From the NCBI RefSeq assembly GCF_011405515.1, contig NZ_AP022671.1, positions 2,542,001 through 2,606,000 on the forward strand: a DNA stretch of 64,000 nucleotides. The letters are read 5' to 3'. The stretch comes from Nitrospira sp. KM1. Its GTDB lineage: Bacteria; Nitrospirota; Nitrospiria; Nitrospirales; Nitrospiraceae. The notes beneath the pieces are model-generated. The model searched no databases. It was not told the origin of the DNA and was given only the letters and a program-made list of their open reading frames with translations. Positions 1,233 to 63,569 of the stretch are shown one piece after another. A program made the position numbers and the translations under genes. How positions within the stretch are numbered: position 1 is the stretch's first letter; each line of letters starts with the position of its first letter.

Positions 1233-4200
1233 GTGACTTCACACGTCTTCATTGATCGGCCGATTCTGGCCTCCGTCGTATCCATCATCATCGTCGTCAT
1301 GGGACTGCTTGCCGTGCAGTTTTTGCCGATTGCGCAGTTTCCTGAAATCACCCCACCGGTGGTGCAGATCGATGCGGACTATCCCGGCGCCAGCGCGGAG
1401 GTCGTCGCAGAATCTGTCGCGCGGGCGATCGAGGTCCAGTTGCCGGGGATCGACAACCTCGTCTACTTTGACAGCACGAGCAGCAACGACGGCCATGTGA
1501 CCATCAAGTTGACGTTCGAAATCGGGACCGATCCGGACATCGCGCAAGTCCAAACCCAGAATAGAGAAAAATTGGCGGAGCCCCAGCTGCCTCCAGAGGT
1601 GATCCGGCAGGGCGTCAGTGTCAAGAAGATGTCTCCTGATCTGGTGGCCGTGATCGCGCTCAAGTCCACCGATCCGAATCACGACGCGGTCTTCCTGTCC
1701 AACTACGCCATCTTGCGTTTGGTCGACAACGTGCGTCGCGTCAAGGGAGTCGGAGATGCGATGGTGTTTGGACAGCAGAACTACAGCATGCGCATCATCC
1801 TGAATCCGCTGCACATGGCCAAACTGGGACTGACGCCGACGGATATCGCTGCCACCATCCGCGAGCAAAACAGGGACTATCCGGCCGGCACCATCGGACG
1901 CGAGCCAGCTCCAAAGGGTACCGAGATGACCATTCCGGTGATCACGAAGGGCCGGCTGACCGAGGTCCAGGACTTTGAAGAGCTGATCGTCCGCGCGATG
2001 CCGGACGGCTCGCTCGTGCGTTTGAAAGACGTGGCACGCATCGAGCTCGGCGCACAATCGTATGCGCTCGAGGGGCGATGGAACAGTAGCCCGACGACCT
2101 TCATTGTCACGTTTCTCGCCCCCGGGGCGAACGCCCTGGATACCGTGCGGCGCACGCGTGCGGAGATGGACTCGATGGCGAAGAGCTTCCCTCCCGGCGT
2201 CTCCTACGATATTCCTTACGACACCACGCGGTTCATCGAGGTCTCGATCAAGGAGGTCGTCAAAACGCTTCTGGAGGCCATGGTGCTGGTCGTACTGGTG
2301 GTCTATGTGTTTTTGCAGAGCTGGCGGGCCACGATTATTCCCACCGTGGCAGTCCCTGTGTCGCTGATCGGCACGTTTCTTGGTCTTTATGTCCTGGGCT
2401 TCTCGATCAACACCATTACCCTTTTTGGCATGGTCCTCGCCATCGGGATCGTCGTCGACGATGCCATTGTGGTTGTCGAAAACGTCGAACGTCATATGCG
2501 GGAAGACCGTGTGTCCCCCAAAGAAGCGGCAAAACGGGCGATGAGTGAGGTGACCGCCCCGGTCATTGCCATCGTGCTGGTGCTGGTGTCCGTGTTCGTT
2601 CCGGTGGGATTCGTAGGCGGCATCACCGGTCAGCTTTACAAGCAATTTGCCGCTACGATCGCAATTTCAGTGACATTTTCAGGGTTCGTCGCCTTGACGC
2701 TCAGCCCGGCCCTATGCGCCATGGTCCTCGTGCCGCAGCATGGCGAACGGGGAAGATTTTGGGTCTGGTTCGACCGAGTATTCGGCAAAACGCAACATGG
2801 CTACACGAGCATTGTCGGAAGCCTGGTGCGAAGGCCTTTCCGTGTAATGCTGGTATTCGGCGTATTGCTCCTGTTCACGTTTGGAATGTTTAACACCCTG
2901 CCGCGCAGCTTTTTGCCCGAAGAGGACCAGGGATATTTCATCGTCGTGGCTCAATTGCCGGATGGTGCGTCCAAGCAGAGGACGGATGCGGTGTTGGATC
3001 GGATCGAGCGGTTTCTGCAGGCTAATCCTGCCGTGCATTCGACCGACGCCATGTCGGGGCAAAACTTTGTATTCGGAACGAGGGGACCGAATTCGGCCAC
3101 CATGTTCGTGCCGCTGCATTTGTGGGATGAGCGGAAGGAGCCGCAATTTCATGTGAAGTCGCTGATCGGCCAGGCGTTCGGGGAATTCGCCAAGATCCCG
3201 GAAGCGCTGCTCTTGGCCTTCAATGCGCCGTCGCTCCGCGGAGTTGGAACGGTCGGCGGTTTCTCGGCACAGCTCCAAGACCCCGGAGGCGGAGATTTCA
3301 AAAAGTTTGCGGTGGTCGCTCAACAATTCATCGAGCGGGCGAAGAAGGAACCGGCCATCGGTCAGGTCGGAACCAATTTCCGCGTTTCGGCTCCACGGCT
3401 CTATGCCCATGTGAACCGGGAACGTGCCAAGTCTCTTGGTGTGCCGATCTCGGATATCTTCGATACGTTGCAGGCCTACTTCGGCACATACTACATCAAC
3501 GACTTTCTCAAATTCGGCCGCATCTATCATGTACAGACCGAAGCCGACGCGGAGTTCCGTTCGACGCCGCAGGATATCGCGAAGATCTACGTGCGGGCCC
3601 AGAATACACAAGGTATGCACATGATTCCGCTCAATACGGTCGTGACAACGGAATATCAGAGCGGACCGGATCCCGTGAATCACTTCAACGGCTATAACAC
3701 CGCGCTGGTGCTCGGGTCTGCCGCTCCCGGCTACAGCTCCGGCCAGGCTCTTGAGGCCCTCGACCACGTCGCGAAAGAAGTGTTGGAACCCCAAGGGTAT
3801 GCGATCGATTGGAGCAATATCTCCTTTCAGGAACGTCGCGTCGGCGGGCAATCAAATGTCGTGTTCATCATCGGCCTCTTGATGGTGTTTCTGGTCCTGG
3901 CCGCCCAATTTGAGAGCTGGGTGGTCCCCTTCGCCGTGATTTTGGCCGTACCGTTCGCCATTTTCGGCGCCCTCGCCGCCGTCTGGGTCAGAGGGTTTAC
4001 CAACGACATCTACTTTCAGATCGGGCTGGTCACGTTGATCGGTCTGTCAGCCAAGAACGCCATCCTGATCGTCGAATTCGCCAACACCCGCTACGAAGCC
4101 GGACGTCCGCTGCTCGATGCCGCCATCGAAGCGGCGCGCCTCCGGTTCCGGCCCATCATCATGACGTCCATGGCCTTCATCTTCGGGATGTTCCCGTTGG

Positions 4201-39013: not shown

Positions 39014-39100
39014 GCCGAAGTGGCGGAACTGGCAGACGCACTAGATTCAGGGTCTAGCGCCCGCAAGGGTGTCCGGGTTCAAATCCCGGCTTCGGCACCA
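39014..39100 (+). tRNA. tRNA-Leu (CAG)
   Basis: The acceptor GCCGAAG pairs with CTTCGGC, followed by A and an encoded CCA (39098-39100). The anticodon stem CTAGA/TCTAG encloses TTCAGGG, so the anticodon is CAG. A long variable arm (GCGCCCGCAAGGGTGT region) marks a class II tRNA, and the T-arm CCGGG-TTCAAAT-CCCGG is canonical. Its 3' half is duplicated 20.5 kb to the right, marking it as an integration site. Confidence 0.97.
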
Positions 39101-39104
39101 CCCA
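39046..39104 (+). repeat. attL: 59-bp direct repeat in tRNA-Leu 3' half
   Basis: Identical over 59 bp to 59536-59594; flanking bases differ (A before and T after here, C before and C after at the right copy). It rebuilds an intact tRNA end, as is typical of attL/attB cores. Confidence 0.95.
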
Positions 39105-40241
39105 TCAATCCTCGCTCCTATCAATACGATTCACCGTTTCATCGCTTCCTGCCATCGCGCCGTTTAAGACGGGCTCTTGCGTCGTTTCATGGCGGATTGT
39201 CATGTAACTGTCATGTGAGCGTTCCGAATCGGGGTCCAAGACCCTCACGGCCGAGGTCAGGTGTTTGGGGGATAGGTGAGCATAACGCAGGGTCATGGTC
39301 GGGGAAGTATGGCCTAACAGGTTACTGACCGTGGCCAATGGGACCCCCCTCATAATCAGCCAGGACGCAAAGGTATGGCGAAGATCGTGGAAGTGGAAGT
39401 CCGTCAGTCCTGCCGCTTCACAGGCCCGATCAAACGGGTGTCGCACATCCTCCCATCGGTGCCCCGCAGGATCGTGAAAGACCCATGGCACATCCGCTCG
39501 GGTGCGAAGCCCGCTAAAGACTCCCCATAAGGTCTCATTCAACGGAAGCGCTCGCGCCTTACCGTTCTTCGTTTGCTTGAGACGGATAAAGCCATGAGTC
39601 ATATCAACACAGTCCCAGGTAAGTCCCAGCAACTCCCCTTTCCTCATCCCGGTATGAATGGCTGTCAGGACAATAGGCTTGAGCCAGCCTTCACAGGATT
39701 GGAGCAACCGTTCTGCTTCACTTTCCCCAGAGAGATACCGAAGCCGGCCGTCTGGCTCTTGATATTTCTTAATGGCGGTTAGTTCTTCCCGTGACATCTT
39801 CCGAAGGAGCTTCCACTCAACCGCCTTGCTCAAGGCATGCTTGAGAGTCGCCATTTCTCGATTGATGGTGGCCGGACCAACCTGTTCACTGAGTCGCTGC
39901 GCTCGGTATTGGTCGAGAACTTCCACCGTGAGGGAATGAATCGGAGGATTCCCCCACACGCGCTTGAAGTGGGCAAAGTGATATTTCTTCGTCGCCACTC
40001 CACGTTGGTGTTCGACAAAAGCGAGATACCGTGTCGCGAGCTCTTCTAGTCCTAGCGGCTTAATGGCTGGAGCAGGGAGAATGCCCTCCATGACTTCCCT
40101 CCGCCGCTCCGTGAGGCGGCCTCCCGCTTCCTTTTGATTGGAGGTCCTGCAGGATTCAAAACGCTGCTTCCCAAGCGCGTCAAAGTAGGTCATCCACCAG
40201 ACGCGCCCCCGCTTATAGAGTCCCCGTGTTGAACGGGCCAT
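39105..40241 (-). CDS. Tyrosine site-specific integrase
   Basis: This 378-aa phage-type integrase has an N-terminal DNA-binding strand (GLYKRGRVWWMTYFDALGKQ), a SAM-like core-binding domain (about 65-160), and a catalytic domain with Arg in HTGMRKGELLGLTWD, HDLRHTFASWL (His-x-x-Arg), LLGHTSPTMTLRYAHL (His and nucleophile Tyr). The stop codon begins exactly at the edge of attL. An XRE repressor gene lies 3 bp upstream, so repressor and integrase share a transcript. It should act on the tRNA-Leu repeat. A TGTCATGT direct repeat lies within its last codons. Confidence 0.96.
   Translation of the reverse strand: MARSTRGLYKRGRVWWMTYFDALGKQRFESCRTSNQKEAGGRLTERRREVMEGILPAPAIKPLGLEELATRYLAFVEHQRGVATKKYHFAHFKRVWGNPPIHSLTVEVLDQYRAQRLSEQVGPATINREMATLKHALSKAVEWKLLRKMSREELTAIKKYQEPDGRLRYLSGESEAERLLQSCEGWLKPIVLTAIHTGMRKGELLGLTWDCVDMTHGFIRLKQTKNGKARALPLNETLWGVFSGLRTRADVPWVFHDPAGHRWEDVRHPFDRACEAAGLTDFHFHDLRHTFASWLIMRGVPLATVSNLLGHTSPTMTLRYAHLSPKHLTSAVRVLDPDSERSHDSYMTIRHETTQEPVLNGAMAGSDETVNRIDRSED
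39196..39214. repeat. Putative integrase arm-type sites (left)
   Basis: Two TGTCATGT copies (39196-39203 and 39207-39214) with an 11-bp period, one helical turn apart, 92 bp inside attL. The same pair, AAC replaced by AAT between them, is at 59399-59417 near attR. It falls inside the integrase 3' coding sequence. Confidence 0.6.
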
Positions 40242-45822: not shown

Positions 45823-46158
45823 CTATTCCACAGTCATTTTGCCGATGAAACGGATATAGGTACCGCCGTCATTGGTTTCACTGCGAGCATGTGCACGTGC
45901 GATGAAAGCGATGAGATCGTTGAGATGTCCGTGCAGATCTTCAGGGAGAGATGATTTGAGCTTCTCAAACTCCGCAATCAGGATGGGCAGCTGCAGGTGG
46001 TTGAATACCGTATGCCCGTACCAATCGATGAAACGGATGCAGCACCCTTCCTGTTCAGGGAAGCGATACACGAGGCTGCCATCGAAACCAGTCTCTCCGT
46101 TGAACCGCTCAATGACCTCTCCAGATTCAGTCTGAGACTCCACGCTCATATGCTGCAT
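45823..46158 (-). CDS. Hypothetical island protein
   Basis: This 111-aa soluble protein has an acidic N-terminus and an aromatic/Cys-containing centre (EQEGCCIRFIDWYGHTVFNH). It ends in HARSETNDGGTYIRFIGKMT. ATG 46158 is preceded by GGAGGAAG. It is the last of a minus-strand group reaching from 46.5 to 44.7 kb. No domain recognised. Confidence 0.65.
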   Translation of the reverse strand: MQHMSVESQTESGEVIERFNGETGFDGSLVYRFPEQEGCCIRFIDWYGHTVFNHLQLPILIAEFEKLKSSLPEDLHGHLNDLIAFIARAHARSETNDGGTYIRFIGKMTVE

Positions 46159-46217
46159 CGTATACTTCCTCCTTGGCCCATCGTCATGGCTCCATCAGGC
46201 GGCAGGTCCAACCCTCG

Positions 46218-46499
46218 TCATTCTGGCTGGATCTCAATGTCTTGCAACTCAACGCCTTCAAAGCGCATCGGAATAATACACTCCTGTTTGGCGTATTCAG
46301 TGGCGAGCGTCTTCTTCCGGTTGGAGCAGTTGGCAATTCTGGTAAACGCACGCGGGACGGGTATCAGCATGCTGTCGTTGACATACGACACGATCGTCCA
46401 TCGAGCCTGCACCCGCCATAGCCCAAAATTGGATTTGTACGAATGGATCTTGATGATACCCTTGCTGGCCAAATTGACGGTGCACAATTCGCAGGCCAT
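46218..46499 (-). CDS. Duplicated small hypothetical protein, island copy
   Basis: This 93-aa protein starting MACELCTVNLASKGIIKIHS has a close relative at 62917-63198, outside the island; both DNA and protein match along the whole length. Conserved points are the N-terminal CELC pair, a central RWTIVSYVND and CSNRKKTLATEYA. A CxxC near the N-terminus could bind metal. ATG 46499 is chosen because the two copies differ by one base further upstream and the shared frame begins near here. It may be a transposed accessory gene. Confidence 0.6.
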   Translation of the reverse strand: MACELCTVNLASKGIIKIHSYKSNFGLWRVQARWTIVSYVNDSMLIPVPRAFTRIANCSNRKKTLATEYAKQECIIPMRFEGVELQDIEIQPE

Positions 46500-46666
46500 G
46501 AAGATCGAGACCACGCAGAATCCATGGAGCAGCCGCTCCAATAGTGCCTCTCACATTTCGCGCAGGCTCGCGGTTCATTCACAACCCGCCTTCTTGATTA
46601 CATACAAGCACGTAATTGACATTGTCAGGTGGACTGTTATCCTGTCTGCCCCCGTATACTGTCGCG

Positions 46667-46964: not shown

Positions 46965-46975
46965 CCCCCCCCCCC
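46965..46975. repeat. Poly-C tract (C11)
   Basis: Eleven consecutive C residues lie 76 bp upstream of the receiver-dioxygenase start codon. Such tracts can vary in length by slippage; they are also assembly-error prone. Confidence 0.8.
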
Positions 46976-47051
46976 TACTTTTGCGTCATACGCCAATTGT
47001 TGCGGCAACCACGCATATAGTCGATACTGATTCTCCGCGTGGAGGTGCGCC

Positions 47052-48158
47052 ATGGGAATAAACATTCTGTTTATCGATGGAGACACCGATGACCACAAAT
47101 ACTTCGTTGATCGTCTGAAGCGAATCTTTCCTGACGACCAGATTCTTGAAGCCTCCTCCGGGAACATCGGACGTGAGCTATTGCATCGCGAGCGCATCGA
47201 TTGTCTGGTGCTCGAACTCGATCTGCCCGATATGTCGGGATTCCAAATTCTAGTCGATGCGGTACCCGTTGCGAGTGCTCCCAGGCTGCCAGTCATTGTA
47301 CTTACCCGGCTCCCTAACAGGGACATTTGGGAACTCGCTAAAAGAAATGGGGCCTATGCCTGCTTATGGAAGCCCTGCACTACAGGTGATGTACTCGTCA
47401 GTACCATTGAACGGGGCCTTGCACAAATCGCCCCGCAAGGGAAAGAACCCAATTCACTACCACTGCCGCATATCGGGCAACGGCGCCTGACATCAGCGGA
47501 GATTGCAACATTTCACCAGGACGGGTTTCTCAGCGTTTCCCATCTGACCACTCCGAATGATATCGCCCACCTTCGGAGACTTATCGATCCGTTATTTAGA
47601 TCTTCCTGTCGTACGTTTGGCGTTATTGATCATGTACTGAAATTGGCTCCGGCTATTCGTCACAGCGCGGCGTTTCAGACGTGTCAGCGTATCGCGCAGC
47701 AGCTGGCCGGAATCACTACCCGTGTTTCATTCGATCAGGCTCTGTATAAGCGTCCTCATGAGCTACATGGGACACGCTGGCATCAGGATCAAGCCTTTCG
47801 CAACCGGCATTTCCCCATGAACACATTGCACTTTTGGATTCCCCTCCAACCGGTCACCACACACAACGGCTGTCTGCACTTCATTCCAGGCAGTCATCAG
47901 CAAGGCTTGCTGCCTCACTATCAAATAGACGAAAATGATCCCTACGCTATCACACCGCAGAAGGTCGATACCTCTCACGCCGTTCCCTGTCCCCTGTCTG
48001 TGGGCTCCGCGACCATTCACACTCCGCTGACGCTGCACGCTGCACTGCCGAACAACACTGAGGAGATCCGGCGCGCTTGGGCTTTGGTCTTCAGGCCCTT
48101 TGGCCGAATTGGCGCATTGAACCCCTTCCCCGCTGTCAGGCAACTATTTACACACTAA
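47052..48158 (+). CDS. Receiver domain fused to phytanoyl-CoA dioxygenase (PhyH) domain
   Basis: This 368-aa protein is a fusion. Residues 1-125 are a response-regulator receiver (ILFIDGDTDDHKYFVDRLKR, LELDLPDMSGFQILVD, VIVLTRLPN, Lys in LWKPCT). Alignment by eye places E55 at the phospho-acceptor Asp and G10 in the acidic pair, so normal phosphorylation is unlikely and E55 may mimic it. Residues about 145-368 are a PhyH-type Fe(II)/2-oxoglutarate oxygenase: HGTRWHQDQAF (H244, D246), LHFWIPLQPVTTHNGCLHFI, PGSH, distal H329 in LTLHAALPN and R341. GGAGGTG precedes ATG. The next gene is a stand-alone copy of the receiver. Confidence 0.88.
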   Translation: MGINILFIDGDTDDHKYFVDRLKRIFPDDQILEASSGNIGRELLHRERIDCLVLELDLPDMSGFQILVDAVPVASAPRLPVIVLTRLPNRDIWELAKRNGAYACLWKPCTTGDVLVSTIERGLAQIAPQGKEPNSLPLPHIGQRRLTSAEIATFHQDGFLSVSHLTTPNDIAHLRRLIDPLFRSSCRTFGVIDHVLKLAPAIRHSAAFQTCQRIAQQLAGITTRVSFDQALYKRPHELHGTRWHQDQAFRNRHFPMNTLHFWIPLQPVTTHNGCLHFIPGSHQQGLLPHYQIDENDPYAITPQKVDTSHAVPCPLSVGSATIHTPLTLHAALPNNTEEIRRAWALVFRPFGRIGALNPFPAVRQLFTH

Positions 48159-48224: not shown

Positions 48225-48653
48225 GTGATAACCATTCTTGTCATCGACGGACACGACGAAGACCGTTCGTATGTTGTGGAGCGCCTCAAGATTGCATTCC
48301 CCGACTATCGGATCGTCGAAGCCGATACGGGGGATGCGGGATGTGACATCTTGCGGCGAGAGGGCGCCCATTGCATCGTGCTTGAGCTCGATCTGCCTGA
48401 CCGCTCCGGGTTCCAAATACTGATCGATGTGGTTCCGCTGGTGAACTCCCCTGAAGTGCCGGTGATTGTGTTGACTCGCGTCCCCAATCGGGACGTGTGG
48501 GAGCTGGCGAGAACGAATGGGGCCCATGCCTGCCTCTTAAAGTCCAAGACTTCCGGGGACGAGCTTGCTCGGGTGGTCCAGACGGGGCTGGCCCGGATTC
48601 CTCCGGCGAAGGGTGAGGAGCCGAAACGATTCCCGCATGCCTGCTCCGAATAG
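48225..48653 (+). CDS. Stand-alone degenerate receiver domain
   Basis: This 142-aa paralog of the receiver half of the previous protein begins TILVIDGHDEDRSYVVERLK and contains CIVLELDLPDRSGFQILIDV, VIVLTRVPNRDVWELA and ACLLKSK. Again the acceptor position holds Glu (E54) and the second acidic-pocket residue is Gly. No output domain follows. The start is GTG 48225 after GAGAGGTG; the leader resembles the one before the fusion gene, which indicates tandem duplication. It may compete with or pair with the fusion's receiver. Confidence 0.85.
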   Translation: MITILVIDGHDEDRSYVVERLKIAFPDYRIVEADTGDAGCDILRREGAHCIVLELDLPDRSGFQILIDVVPLVNSPEVPVIVLTRVPNRDVWELARTNGAHACLLKSKTSGDELARVVQTGLARIPPAKGEEPKRFPHACSE

Positions 48654-48851: not shown

Positions 48852-49088
48852 TCATCTCTCGAAACTCGCCTGTCGTGGCCCACGCCACTTCGCGTCTTCT
48901 CGTATCGTGATCTCGGCCAGCCTCCGCATCACCGACTCGCGGGTGACGCGCCTCCGGTACCGAGGGCCAACCTGTTCGAGTTGCCCACGTTGGATCGCCC
49001 GATAGATCACGCTCCGTGCCATCCCGAGCATCACCATGGCTTCCTTCACCGTAGGGTCAACGAGAGCGAACCGATTCGGCGGCTCCAT
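48852..49088 (-). CDS. HTH/excisionase-type protein of second integrase module
   Basis: ATG 49088 follows GGAGG; the longer frame reads through the integrase gene. The 78-aa product has a MerR/excisionase-like HTH (ALVDPTVKEAMVMLGMARSV, then RYRRRVTRESVMRRLAEI). It starts 10 bp after the integrase stop and is probably the recombination directionality factor or a regulator for it. Confidence 0.7.
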   Translation of the reverse strand: MEPPNRFALVDPTVKEAMVMLGMARSVIYRAIQRGQLEQVGPRYRRRVTRESVMRRLAEITIREDAKWRGPRQASFER

Positions 49089-49098
49089 CGATCCTCCG

Positions 49099-50304
49099 TT
49101 ACCCAGGCCACTCGTCTTGAGACACAGGCTCCGGGTGGACATACGTCGGCTGAACCACCACGGCCTCCGCTGGTATGGGCTCAGGCTCCACGTGAACGGG
49201 CTCCGGGCGTACGGTCTTGGCATGAGGCGCAGGCCGCCGAGGTGGCTTCGGTGGCTGTGATCGTGCCCCAGAGCCATCATGCCTATCTGGTGGTGTCAGA
49301 TCTGGGTATAACCGCATGATCGATTCCGCCTGTTCATCGACGGCGGTTCGCAGAGAACTGACATCCAGACGGGCATAAATATGGACCTGCGAGAGATTGG
49401 CATGTCCCAACGCATTGGCAATCAACGTCGAAGACTTCCCGTTCATCGCCATGAATGAGGCGAAGGTCCTGCGGATATCGTGAATCCGGCAGTCTGGCAG
49501 GTGTGCCCGCTTCCGAATACGCGCCCATTGGTTCTGTGTGTAGATCTCCCCCCACCGACCGAGCTGATCCGGCCGCTCGAACACATAGGTGCTCAGCCGT
49601 GGCAACCAAGTGAGGAGCTTCACCAACTGAGCCGGGAGCGGCGTGGTCTGCGGACGCTTGGCTTTCGTCGTGCCCGCCGGCTTGTGCCAGAGTCCGTTCA
49701 CGAGATCAAGATCAGCCCACTTCATCCGCTGCGCTTCCCCTTTTCGGCAGCCGGTGAGAAGCAACGTTATGAAGAAGGTCTTGATGTCGTCCGGCTCCAT
49801 GTTCAACACCGTCATGAGCCGTTGCAGTTCCTCTCCAGGTTGAATAAAGCGTGTTCGCGGGAAGGGTCGGGGCCGCTTAATGCCTCGGGTCGGGTTCGCC
49901 TTGTCCCAGATCTCCCATTCCGCGGCCTTGAAGAAGAGAGCCTTGAGATTCTTGATGCACATGTACGCGACGACCGGGGAGGTCTTGGCGATTTCATCGG
50001 ACCAATGAATAATCCAACGCCGGGTGATGCTCTCGGGCTTCAGGTCCAACAGAGGTGTGAAGTGCTTCCCGATGCGCGCCTTGATCACCGTCGTGGTCGA
50101 ATCGGCCAATGTGGAGAGGTGATAGCGGTAGTAGAGCTCAATCCATTCCCGGATGCGCCACGTCTCTTTGCACCGCTGCCAGAGCTCATGGTCATCGGGA
50201 TCGGGAAAGCGACGGCCCGCCAGACACTCGGCTTCGTAGTCTTCAACGATCGAATTGAGGGCAGGCACAGCCGAGGAGGGCACGAGCGTGAAATTGGGAG
50301 CCAT
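49099..50304 (-). CDS. Second tyrosine integrase
   Basis: This 401-aa integrase is unlike the one at 39105. The core-binding domain occupies about residues 60-150 and the catalytic domain has LTGCRKGEAQRMKW (Arg), RIHDIRRTFASFMA (His-x-x-Arg), ALGHANLSQVHIYARL (His and Tyr). The C-terminal 70 residues are a Pro/Glu/His-rich tail not needed for catalysis. It implies a separate mobile unit nested or fused inside the island. No duplicated att site for it was found by eye. Confidence 0.93.
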   Translation of the reverse strand: MAPNFTLVPSSAVPALNSIVEDYEAECLAGRRFPDPDDHELWQRCKETWRIREWIELYYRYHLSTLADSTTTVIKARIGKHFTPLLDLKPESITRRWIIHWSDEIAKTSPVVAYMCIKNLKALFFKAAEWEIWDKANPTRGIKRPRPFPRTRFIQPGEELQRLMTVLNMEPDDIKTFFITLLLTGCRKGEAQRMKWADLDLVNGLWHKPAGTTKAKRPQTTPLPAQLVKLLTWLPRLSTYVFERPDQLGRWGEIYTQNQWARIRKRAHLPDCRIHDIRRTFASFMAMNGKSSTLIANALGHANLSQVHIYARLDVSSLRTAVDEQAESIMRLYPDLTPPDRHDGSGARSQPPKPPRRPAPHAKTVRPEPVHVEPEPIPAEAVVVQPTYVHPEPVSQDEWPG

Positions 50305-56113: not shown

Positions 56114-56205
56114 GTCGTTTATGTCGTTTTGGTTGGACGTCAAAGGGAGTCGCTGGGGTGGGGACTTCAGTCGTTTTTGTCGTTTATGTCGTACCCTGAT
56201 GTCGT
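56114..56205. repeat. Iterated GTCGT repeats with 9-bp spacing
   Basis: GTCGTTTATGTCGT occurs exactly at 56114-56127 and 56179-56192. GTCGT units start at 56114, 56123, 56170, 56179, 56188 and 56201; the spacing is 9 bp within each cluster. The cluster overlaps the 3' end of the PIN-like gene. It looks like iterons or regulator-binding sites. Confidence 0.65.
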
Positions 56206-56891
56206 ATGAAAATTTGTTGCGAATACGGCCTTTGCCCAGTAGGTGCACATCCAATAGCAGCTATTGCTTGATCTTGAATTCTGACACAAAACGTCTCTAG
56301 ACCTTGTTCATACCCAGCGTTGAGAAAATCTCTAGGAAGCCACTCGCTGTGGGCCAAGAGCTTACTCCGTGTATCGTCACAGTCTTTGACAGAAAGAACC
56401 TCGCACTGATTGAAGAGCCCCAAAAGATCAAATACTCTAATGACTGGTTTCGGCACATTCATATTAAGGTTGAGGAGCGTATTCAAGGCTTGAGCGTCGT
56501 GACTTAAGGCAGGCACCTCCAATGATACAGCTGCTGCATATGTGTACGCCTCACCTGATCCTACTCGCAATTCGTATTGCTGTCCCATTGCCTGTATAGC
56601 ATCCCACGTTGCCTGGATCGTGGTTGCAGGTAGTCCAGACGTTTTCAGATGGGTTTGGAGAAAGAGGGAGTCGAAGATTTTTATAACTCCCGTTTGCAGA
56701 ACCTTATCGAACCTAGCGCCTATGTACGCTTTGTATTTCTTATTTTGCCTGATCTCATTTTCGACTTCATGCACAATGACAGGTTGAATGCTATATCCTG
56801 AGCTCAATAGCTTCAACAAATTGTGTCGGTCAGTTAGTAGGAGCTGAATAGTAGCATCAGAATCACAAAGAAGGAGGGAGGGATTATCCAT
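56184..56891 (-). CDS. PIN-like domain protein (putative toxin)
   Basis: This 235-aa protein has a PIN-like fold suggested by LLLCDSDATIQLLLTDRHNL (first Asp), VIVHEVENEIRQN, and RVGSGEAYTYAAAVSLEVPA followed by LSHDAQALNTLL (Glu and Asp at the C-terminal acid positions). It follows the XRE-ImmA/IrrE gene after 15 bp, the same pairing seen in known ImmA-PIN toxin-antitoxin-like modules. The C-terminal 60 residues are extra. It would act as a nuclease if the acidic residues are right. Confidence 0.7.
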   Translation of the reverse strand: MDNPSLLLCDSDATIQLLLTDRHNLLKLLSSGYSIQPVIVHEVENEIRQNKKYKAYIGARFDKVLQTGVIKIFDSLFLQTHLKTSGLPATTIQATWDAIQAMGQQYELRVGSGEAYTYAAAVSLEVPALSHDAQALNTLLNLNMNVPKPVIRVFDLLGLFNQCEVLSVKDCDDTRSKLLAHSEWLPRDFLNAGYEQGLETFCVRIQDQAIAAIGCAPTGQRPYSQQIFIRHQGTT

Positions 56892-56906
56892 AGAATAGCA
56901 GAAACA

Positions 56907-58127
56907 CTATTCTGAATAGGCGGGAACTTTATCATTAAATCTGGAGTAGAAAGTTCCTTCATCTATCATAAGAAGTTCAGCAGCTTTGCTGGTGCTAACG
57001 TTTCCTATGCGGAGAGCATCTAAGACCCTGAGAATATATGAGGAAGGCAATCGCAGCGTTCTTGTGGGAATGGTTGTGTTACGTTTGTTTTGCCACTCTG
57101 GCTTAATGCCTTTCTTTCTTATGAATTGGCCGGCACTTAAGGCCCGCTCGGAAACCTTAAGCAGGTCTTCCGAGATCTCCAAATTGATGTAATTGTTACG
57201 CTCATCTTCAGAAATGAGTTCATTGTCAACTGCTGCAGATAGCACGGTGCGTTGTTCGCAATGAGTCATACCCACGAGCTCAGCGAGTTTCTTGGAAGAA
57301 AGTGCGTGCCAATTGATTCCTAGCTTAGATGTCATATGAATCAATACTTCCCTCGGCACTAAACACTCTTTAGCAAAAGCCTCGGCCCGCTCTTCTGATA
57401 AGGAAGGTATCAAGTCTTTAGCTTCAAGAAAATCGATGGACGCTCCTTCTGTGCATGCATCAAAGATTGCGTGCGCAAGTTCATGCAACAAGACATGGTT
57501 TCTTCTGAACCATGTTCCCTTGTATGTGTTGGAGAACAAGCAAGGGCGATCAAGGGATGTTGCACCAAGATAAAAACAGCAACCTTCTAGGTTGGACTTA
57601 GGCAAGGGACTCTCGATAATGAGAACACCTTTGCTTCGCAGATTTCCTCTGAAAAGTTCTCCAATTCCGCCATGCCCTTTTTCTAAACCCGTATATTGGC
57701 GGAAGATACGCGCTGCTTGGCGCCCCTGTTCTCTAGGCGGAGCTTGCTTATCAGTCTCACGGCGTATTGCCTCAAAGAGAAGATCCCAACCTACATCTTT
57801 GGTACTAGTCACCTGCTCTAGTTGATCCACATAAAATCCTAGTTGGCGGATCAACAGGACGCATTCACGATCAGAGTCAGTCAACCCAGCACCTCTGAAC
57901 TTGAACCATATGGCTGGCGTGATGTCGGCCTGATGACCCTTGATTCTCTTAGAGCTTCGTAAGAGAGTTGGTGCGACGCCGAGAACGGCTGAGAGACGAC
58001 GAACCATTGAATCAGGGATCGAACGTTGTCCCGCCGCCCATTGCTGCAAGAGGTCTGGGCTGATACCAAGAAGGCCGGCGGATGTAGTTGCGTTTAAACC
58101 AGCGGAATCTAGAATCTGCTGTAGCAT
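56907..58127 (-). CDS. XRE-HTH and ImmA/IrrE (M78) metallopeptidase protein
   Basis: This 406-aa protein has an N-terminal XRE-type HTH (TTSAGLLGISPDLLQQWAAG, QRSIPDSMVRRLSAVLGV), then an ImmA/IrrE-type zinc peptidase with the motif VLLHELAHAIFDAC (HExxH-like HELAH) and ERAEAFAKECLVPREVL. The C-terminal part may be a second HTH (LDALRIGNVSTSKAAELLMI). Such proteins act as antitoxin and regulator, cleaving a repressor or partner. It is upstream of the PIN gene. ATG 58127 has no strong SD. Confidence 0.88.
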   Translation of the reverse strand: MLQQILDSAGLNATTSAGLLGISPDLLQQWAAGQRSIPDSMVRRLSAVLGVAPTLLRSSKRIKGHQADITPAIWFKFRGAGLTDSDRECVLLIRQLGFYVDQLEQVTSTKDVGWDLLFEAIRRETDKQAPPREQGRQAARIFRQYTGLEKGHGGIGELFRGNLRSKGVLIIESPLPKSNLEGCCFYLGATSLDRPCLFSNTYKGTWFRRNHVLLHELAHAIFDACTEGASIDFLEAKDLIPSLSEERAEAFAKECLVPREVLIHMTSKLGINWHALSSKKLAELVGMTHCEQRTVLSAAVDNELISEDERNNYINLEISEDLLKVSERALSAGQFIRKKGIKPEWQNKRNTTIPTRTLRLPSSYILRVLDALRIGNVSTSKAAELLMIDEGTFYSRFNDKVPAYSE

Positions 58128-59535: not shown

Positions 59536-59594
59536 TTCAGGGTCTAGCGCCCGCAAGGGTGTCCGGGTTCAAATCCCGGCTTCGGCACCACCCA
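59536..59594 (+). repeat. attR: 59-bp copy of tRNA-Leu 3' half
   Basis: Identical to 39046-39104. It contains the anticodon loop to CCA but lacks the 5' half of the tRNA, so it is not a working tRNA gene. Confidence 0.95.
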
Positions 59595-59604
59595 CCCATC
59601 CTGC

Positions 59605-60230
59605 CTAATTGTTCAATGAGTTAGAAATGCGAACGGAACGAGGTGTTACCGGGGTGTTAATCACAGCCTCAAGGCGCGTCATGGCCGCATCGAGTTTTCG
59701 GCCTTGACCGTCCGATAGCGCAGGAACATTTCGACAGAGGAATGCCCAACGATCTTCATGATCGTTTCCGTATCGACACCGGCCCTCAGCTAGATTGGTC
59801 GCGGCACAGTGTCGAAGATCATGGAAGACGAAGTCAGCAATCGATTGCTCCTCACAAAGCCGCTGGACCTCTCGGTACGTATGGTTCAGTTTCTCCCCGT
59901 CCTTCTGAAACACCAGCCCCTGAATGCGCATCACCCCATCGGCGCCTCTCAGCCGCTGGAATTCCCGACGCAGTCCCTTCTCAAGGTCAACCCGATCCCG
60001 CGTGACCGTAAGAATCTCTTCCAATCGCACCCGGTGTGATAGCCCGTCAGCAACACCGACTTGAACCAGGCCGGCGCCGCGTCATAGAGCCGTGTCCATT
60101 CTTCTGGCTCTAAGACCCCGTTCCTGGCGTTCTTAGGCTTGGGGGCGGCCACGAGACAGGCCACATTGCGGGTGATGAGATCCCGCTTCATCGCCTGCTT
60201 GAGATCGATAATCACCCGAACGCCCGAATG
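59605..60230 (-). pseudogene. Frameshifted tyrosine integrase remnant
   Basis: Two frames together give an integrase: LKQAMKRDLITRNVACLVAA and EWTRLYDAAPAWFKSVLLTG, YHTG in one; MRLEEILTVTRDRVDLEKGL and FVFHDLRHCAATNLAEG in the other. After that a third frame would give IMKIVGHSSVEMFLRYRTVK. So at least two indels disable it, and the N-terminal domain is missing. It ends 10 bp from attR with the same orientation as the intact integrase, as expected of an older island at this tRNA. Confidence 0.85.
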
Positions 60231-62499: not shown

Positions 62500-62916
62500 C
62501 GCACACCTCCACGGTTAGAACTGCCAGTATGAGATGGAGCGGAGGCTTGGGCAATGGGAAGCTGCTCCTTTTGGTCGTTGAATCGTGAATGTCGTAACCC
62601 ATGGCTGGTAGCAAGCTGGGTACCATGACCGCGACAGGGGCTCCCAAACACAGATCACCAATCAGGATTTCGAAATGCTCCAGAGTGGGATCAACCGGGG
62701 TCCTTGTGCCATGTCCGGATGCCCTGCGCTCTCGGCGGCGTTTACCCATGGAGCGATGGATATTTCGTTGATCCCGGTACGAAGTAGCTCTTCTCAGGCA
62801 AATCCATTTCCTCAGCACTGCGCAGCTTAGCGTGAGCTCTTCGGGATGTTGCATCAGATACTTCCTTCTTGGGAGACCACAGGCATGGTTCTATCACGCG
62901 ACAGGCGTGAATCCAT

Positions 62917-63198
62917 TCATTCCCGCAGGATCTCTATGCTGTTCACTTGCACCCCTTCAAAGCGCAGGGGAATGATGCAGTCGCGTGTGGCGTATTCAAT
63001 CGCGAGAGCCTTCTTCCTATTCGAGCAGGTCTCAATGTTGGTAAATGCACGTGGAGGGGGAATCGGTAGGCGGTCATTTACAAAGGACACGATGGTCCAG
63101 CGGGCCTTCACGCGCCAGATACCCCGGTTGGATTTGGACAAATGAATCTTGACGATCCCTTTGCTGGCCAAATTGACGGTGCACAATTCGCAAGCCAT
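62917..63198 (-). CDS. Duplicated small hypothetical protein, outside copy
   Basis: This 93-aa protein starting MACELCTVNLASKGIVKIHL is a close paralog of 46218-46499; DNA similarity runs across at least 62920-63270. RWTIVSFVND, CSNRKKALAIEYA and the C-terminal IPLRFEG are conserved. It is probably accessory DNA of the older island. Function unknown; a CxxC is near the N-terminus. Confidence 0.6.
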   Translation of the reverse strand: MACELCTVNLASKGIVKIHLSKSNRGIWRVKARWTIVSFVNDRLPIPPPRAFTNIETCSNRKKALAIEYATRDCIIPLRFEGVQVNSIEILRE

Positions 63199-63569
63199 GG
63201 AGGTCGAGACCACGCAGAATCCACGGAGCAGCCGCTCTCTAGCGCCTCCCGCATTTCGCGCAGGCTCTTCATTCAATAACAACCCGCCTTCCTAACTACA
63301 AAGCTGTACGTACTTGACCCAGACCAGCTTCAGCCCCCATGGGTTTCGGTACTTCCCTGTGTGCCCCGTATCGTCAGACTCGCAAGTTGGAAGGGGACTT
63401 GGCAGAATAGTTCTCGATCTTACGATTAGGGACACCCTTCTTTATGGCGCGATCGCTTTTCCGCCGATCTCATTCGGCTGTTCCGAAGCTCAGCTCATCT
63501 TTCGGTCGGTCGCCATGCTCCGTGAACTCCCAGTTTCGTAGCCCGCTCGCACGTGCTAACCTTATTCTC

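Follow-up and report, generated by a model that had tools for sequence, protein, structure and literature searches.

A receiver domain that lacks its phospho-acceptor Asp cannot take part in normal phosphotransfer. Receivers with this residue replaced (aspartate-less receivers, ALRs) are a described class. In the parts of PMC4395418 drawn on here, the Asp is most often exchanged for Glu (26%), ALRs as a rule retain the first acidic residue and the Lys, and rare and enzymatic outputs are over-represented among them. The same parts propose a constitutive role or an alternative input for them, and state that an Asp-to-Glu change alone is often insufficient for receiver activation. Receivers joined to metabolic enzymes form another described class, usually narrow in distribution (PMC5847659). 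The word 'dioxygenase' is absent from the text of PMC4395418, and 'oxygenase' has no occurrences in the text of PMC5847659. No description of a receiver with a PhyH output was found in the literature searched, and an earlier listing may exist in the Galperin 2006 and 2010 output-domain censuses, which lie outside the search. The first-pass annotation of the gene described here had proposed an undescribed system. This is an overstatement: the general class of receiver and metabolic enzyme is known (PMC5847659), and no multi-gene system was seen beyond a neighbouring receiver paralogue.

The gene lies in a window of 64,000 nt, the whole stretch of DNA analysed, from Nitrospira sp. KM1 (genome of 4,509,223 bases in a single contig). 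Its frame (P0001) is uninterrupted from an ATG at 47052 to a stop codon ending at 48158, and a ribosome-binding site (GGAGGTG) is found 4 nt ahead of the ATG. The annotation had read the 368-aa product as a receiver fused to an oxygenase, and had suggested a Pfam search over the protein as a check. Both domains were recovered above their gathering scores: Response_reg (PF00072) with 41.0 bits against a cut-off of 30.2 (aa 13-114), and PhyH (PF05721) with 89.9 bits against a cut-off of 22 (aa 188-342). The numbering given for H244, D246, H329 and E55 is correct in the sequence. A generic consensus promoter scan listed no promoter upstream of the gene. A run of 11 C residues (46965-46975) precedes the promoter-like site by about 25 bp, and a second copy of the gene has 5 C at this place; the run is possibly a slippage-prone tract. 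Coordinates of these and other features are given in Table 1.

Table 1. Features of the fused gene and its island (positions are those of the window).
Feature	Position	Strand	Evidence
Fused gene, ALR and PhyH-type Fe(II)/2OG oxygenase, 368 aa	47052..48158	+	Single open frame; both Pfam domains; second intact copy
Receiver domain, aa 4-125	47061..47426	+	PF00072; alignment of 24 family copies; predicted (beta-alpha)5 order
Codon of E55, phospho-acceptor position	47214..47216	+	Sequence; Glu in 23/24 family members
Interdomain linker, aa 126-145	47427..47486	+	pLDDT <50 at 128-140; dN/dS by segment
PhyH-type oxygenase domain, aa 146-354, double-stranded beta-helix	47487..48113	+	PF05721; model; EvdO2 fold match
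H244-x-D246, proximal iron ligands	47781..47789	+	Invariant in 49/49 homologues
H329, distal iron ligand	48036..48038	+	Invariant in 49/49 homologues
R340, predicted 2-oxoglutarate-binding arginine, 11 residues past H329	48069..48071	+	Invariant in 49/49; EvdO2 spacing
Promoter-like TTGCGG-N17-GATACT (weak)	47000..47028	+	Kept in second copy as TTGCAG-N17-GATACT
Stand-alone Glu-type receiver, 56-57% identical, 66 nt downstream, possible partner	48225..48653	+	PF00072; alignment
HTH_17 excisionase-like gene and tyrosine integrase adjoining fused gene	48852..50304	-	Pfam
attL, 3' end of tRNA-Leu(CAG) (tRNA 39014-39100)	39046..39112	+	Repeat comparison
Tyrosine integrase at tRNA-Leu end of island	39105..40241	-	PF00589, 115 bits
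attR, 67-bp direct repeat of attL, 97%	59536..59602	+	Repeat comparison

The second full-length copy is located about 259 kb away in the KM1 genome (C1:2847923-2849017, minus strand), and is 83% identical over aa 1-366. The domain junction is identical in both copies, so that two adjacent genes joined by error can be rejected, and an indel artefact connecting two separate genes, which the annotation had named as a possible flaw, is very unlikely. Between the copies, dN/dS (Nei-Gojobori) comes to about 0.10 overall. Taken by domain, it is 0.11 for the receiver and 0.08 for the oxygenase; the latter value is rough because dS in that domain (1.34) is near saturation. The linker is looser, and is the least conserved segment (63% amino acid identity between the copies). 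These ratios rule out a chance open frame, and since they are low in both domains, the fusion is not a pseudogene and an assembly error is very unlikely. The fused gene is under purifying selection in two intact copies; which of its activities is selected does not follow from these two copies. The dS values themselves differ between the domains (0.54 in the receiver, 1.34 in the oxygenase), which may mean gene conversion among receiver paralogues.

Fe(II)/2-oxoglutarate (2OG) enzymes couple the decarboxylation of 2OG to the oxidation of a substrate, and the fused protein carries the HxD...H triad and 2OG arginine of PhyH-type oxygenases. The three iron ligands were identified correctly at the outset and are invariant among the 49 homologues compared. 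The 2OG-binding arginine had been placed at R341, but that residue is kept in only 43 of the 49, whereas R340 is invariant and matches the spacing of EvdO2, so R340 is likely the ligand. A single-sequence AlphaFold prediction was poor (pLDDT 40) and was replaced by a model whose underlying alignment comprised 50 sequences (48 oxygenase relatives, together with the fused protein and the window's second receiver). This model has a mean pLDDT of 81 and values above 90 over most of the oxygenase. The solved structure closest to the model is that of EvdO2 in complex with 2OG (4xac; Z 28.1, rmsd 2.3, 215 residues, ~30% identity), consistent with the beta-helix fold, and Foldseek and sequence search (E 5e-26) agree on this protein. 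In the oxygenase tree, EvdO2 clusters with Micromonospora/Dactylosporangium homologues (100/99) and the KM1 pair stands alone outside this clade on a long stem (2.57 changes per column). The substrate of EvdO2 is therefore not transferable to the fused protein, and the length of the branch suggests that the chemistry may have shifted. No orthosomycin-type gene cluster was identified between about 30 and 64 kb of the window.

The long branch would also fit an oxygenase half that is a pseudo-enzyme or binding module, the whole protein being only a scaffold. So would A330 and L332 near the distal His, since Tyr and Gly occupy these positions in the majority of homologues. However, the iron and 2OG residues are all invariant and kept in both copies, and dN/dS of the domain is 0.08, making loss of catalysis improbable.

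The receiver half carries D9, G10 (for Asp), E55 (for the acceptor Asp), T85, C104 (for the switch Tyr/Phe) and K107. Compared to a canonical phosphorylatable response regulator, the switch Thr and conserved Lys are present (T85 and K107, in 24 copies), while the acceptor Asp and the acidic pair are not (E55, G10), nor is the aromatic switch residue three positions before the Lys; the Gly and Cys substitutions are shared by both fused copies. As a PF00072 domain with a replaced acceptor and the (beta-alpha)5 order, it belongs with the ALRs. The elements predicted in the model are E4-9, H14-25, E30-35, H38-46, E51-56, H62-74, E81-85, H90-98, E101-106 and H112-126. The fold-search listings were filled by the oxygenase domain, and support for the receiver fold comes instead from sequence and from this predicted order of elements.

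Glu at the acceptor position is the family state, being found in 23 of 24 aligned KM1 copies (Asp in the other one). With Asp9, Thr85 and Lys107 kept, and in agreement with the ALR class, this implies that the receiver should be phospho-independent, as the annotation had suggested from E55. Together with C51, these three residues are invariant in all 24 copies, indicating that the receiver pocket is kept and not left to decay. Such invariance would suit a receiver that is a true sensor of some other input, for example thiol redox at C51 or a metabolite in a remodelled pocket, and that switches the oxygenase on and off allosterically; other inputs have been proposed for ALRs in the parts of PMC4395418 used here. 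C51, however, is in predicted strand beta3 and may be buried and structural, and the locus is without a linked sensor gene, so that a sensor function seems unlikely.

Glu-type receivers are numerous in KM1 (25 copies), with 6 copies in N. japonica, 12, 3 and 1 in genomes G005, G004 and G006, and 1 each in two other genera. The family is Nitrospira-restricted and scarcely seen elsewhere in its bacterial family, with no match in 111 of the 118 sampled genomes (E 1e-22). In a receiver tree, the two fused copies group together (99/96) and fall outside a clade that unites 20 other members (99/99). They sit among a few KM1 copies, the stand-alone receiver just downstream being one of them, in an order that the tree does not resolve. 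Most simply, a stand-alone receiver gave rise to the fusion in a single event, and the fused gene was duplicated later. A PHROGs search gave weak receiver matches only, and no Glu-type receivers were confirmed in viral contigs.

The genes surrounding members of the receiver family include CheB/CheR-type genes in some cases, and no universal partner. Several stand-alone members of KM1 and N. japonica lie near such genes (L044, L156, L157), a hint at partners. One KM1 copy (C1:2203179-2203599; L046, ~3179-3599) is frameshifted into two pieces and is an apparent pseudogene. KM1 encodes four instances of a 71-aa module (L040, 2986-3759; L039, 3143-3937; C1:1791530; C1:3261680). Two of them share an open frame with a Glu-type receiver, the module lying N-terminal to the receiver in one case and C-terminal in the other. 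The module has no Pfam match outside the receiver, and was not found in four relatives.

The Glu-type receivers (25 in KM1) could make up a network for signalling or docking that works without phosphorylation and is confined to some Nitrospira. It would have a non-phosphate input and, as its enzyme output, the fused oxygenase, spread by an integrative element. This wider reading is doubtful. Histidine kinases are unlikely to drive the 25 or so Glu-type receivers of this genome, and such a set suggests a different signalling mode in an environmentally important nitrifier, a nitrite-oxidising bacterium.

The fused gene resides on a mobile island of about 20.5 kb in tRNA-Leu, confirming its earlier assignment to such an element. 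The tRNA-Leu(CAG) gene lies next to an integrase gene, and its 3' end is repeated at the far end of the island (67 bp, 97%; 59536-59602). Related genomes share the 36.0-39.1 kb flank and the tRNA, and almost nothing of the island, which is absent from the same site; the sequence just past attR is partly common to one relative. An N. japonica integrase is 59% identical, and no fused gene is found beside it. Decayed remnants of the HTH/integrase pair that adjoins the fused gene also adjoin the second copy (L038, 4311-4853), where the fused gene alone is intact. The recurrence of this pair at both copies, and the absence of the island from relatives, are what would be seen if a mobile element had merely put an oxygenase beside a receiver gene, with no host role beyond the element. 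That the fused gene has stayed intact and constrained at the second locus, where integrase and HTH gene have decayed, speaks against a simple passenger and leaves this explanation with little probability.

Several other sequences of the island and its borders were recorded. A 450-bp segment just upstream of the fused gene (46150-46593) is repeated at 77% identity 16 kb away, past attR (62846-63291), and a further partial copy is found at C1:2362493. An integrase C-terminal fragment directly past attR (59605-60030) points to an earlier or additional island at this tRNA-Leu. At 56184-58127, the island carries a gene for an XRE/ImmA-type peptidase (PF06114) and an unassigned 235-aa partner. PADLOC matched the pair weakly to PDC-M69B/C and RmrA, and it is possibly a stress or defence pair. 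For the fused protein, PADLOC gave no anti-phage defence match.

Searches of 270 genomes of the class, and of 396 phylum genomes with the oxygenase as query, did not find the fusion elsewhere, and in the phylum set all other oxygenase matches had local identities of ~38% or less. It was also absent from 84 loci with oxygenase homologues; of 218 oxygenase relatives from contigs, 80 were kept, none with a receiver upstream. Long frames upstream of the oxygenase, such as those at L088 and L084, look like read-through. Sequence patterns made from the fused protein alone retrieved no relative of the full fusion in genome contigs, and none of 72,556 plasmid records covered 80% of it. The best oxygenase relatives elsewhere are stand-alone proteins with 34-36% identity, and viral contigs gave four distant stand-alone oxygenase matches. 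The fusion is known from one strain, KM1; the sets searched are samples, and its absence elsewhere is unproved.

The explanation preferred here, with a probability of about 0.6, is that the protein is an Fe(II)/2OG oxygenase of PhyH/EvdO2 type, catalytically competent by prediction, which carries an ALR as a fixed docking or dimerisation module acquired by gene fusion. An ALR of the Nitrospira-expanded family would have been joined N-terminally to the oxygenase and, rather than serving as a phosphorylation switch, would hold a fixed, active-state-like form with the Glu opposite the retained Lys and Thr. In this form it could dimerise or bring the oxygenase to a partner, for which the stand-alone receiver next to the gene is a candidate, and the oxygenase would hydroxylate or otherwise oxidise a small molecule. 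Domain scores above cut-off, the 83% identical second copy, low dN/dS, invariant Fe and 2OG residues, the fit to EvdO2, the Glu that 23 of 24 aligned paralogues carry beside invariant D9, T85 and K107, and the published traits of ALRs and of narrowly spread receiver-enzyme fusions all count towards this explanation. The missing switch aromatic (C104), the frequent insufficiency of an Asp-to-Glu change for activation and the long branch of the oxygenase count against it. If active, the protein would be the first findable receiver with a 2OG oxygenase output, and a compact test of how a receiver locked out of Asp phosphorylation affects an attached enzyme.

Among proteins of solved structure, the oxygenase of KM1 is closest to EvdO2 (4xab/4xac), an oxygenase of the everninomicin pathway with the same HxD...H...R site, but EvdO2 is a stand-alone enzyme and the two lie on separate branches of the tree. 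Other PhyH family members (human PHYH, 2a1x; PHYHD1, 3obz/2opw; EctD; proline hydroxylase H11) share the fold and cofactor residues with KM1, at only ~15-22% identity and without a receiver. The receiver resembles the ALRs RitR, ChxR and FrzS in having lost the acceptor Asp and the second acidic residue while keeping the first acidic residue, the Thr and the pocket Lys, as far as the parts of PMC4395418 used here describe them, and departs from them in the missing switch aromatic. ALR outputs given in those parts are DNA-binding, GGDEF, ANTAR, kinase/phosphatase, HDOD, PPDK and CbiA-type domains, in contrast to PhyH in KM1. In overall plan, the KM1 protein is like the receivers joined to BcsA-like glycosyltransferase, thioredoxin reductase and pyruvate phosphate dikinase (PMC5847659), each of which combines a receiver with an enzyme and, like the KM1 fusion, has a narrow spread.
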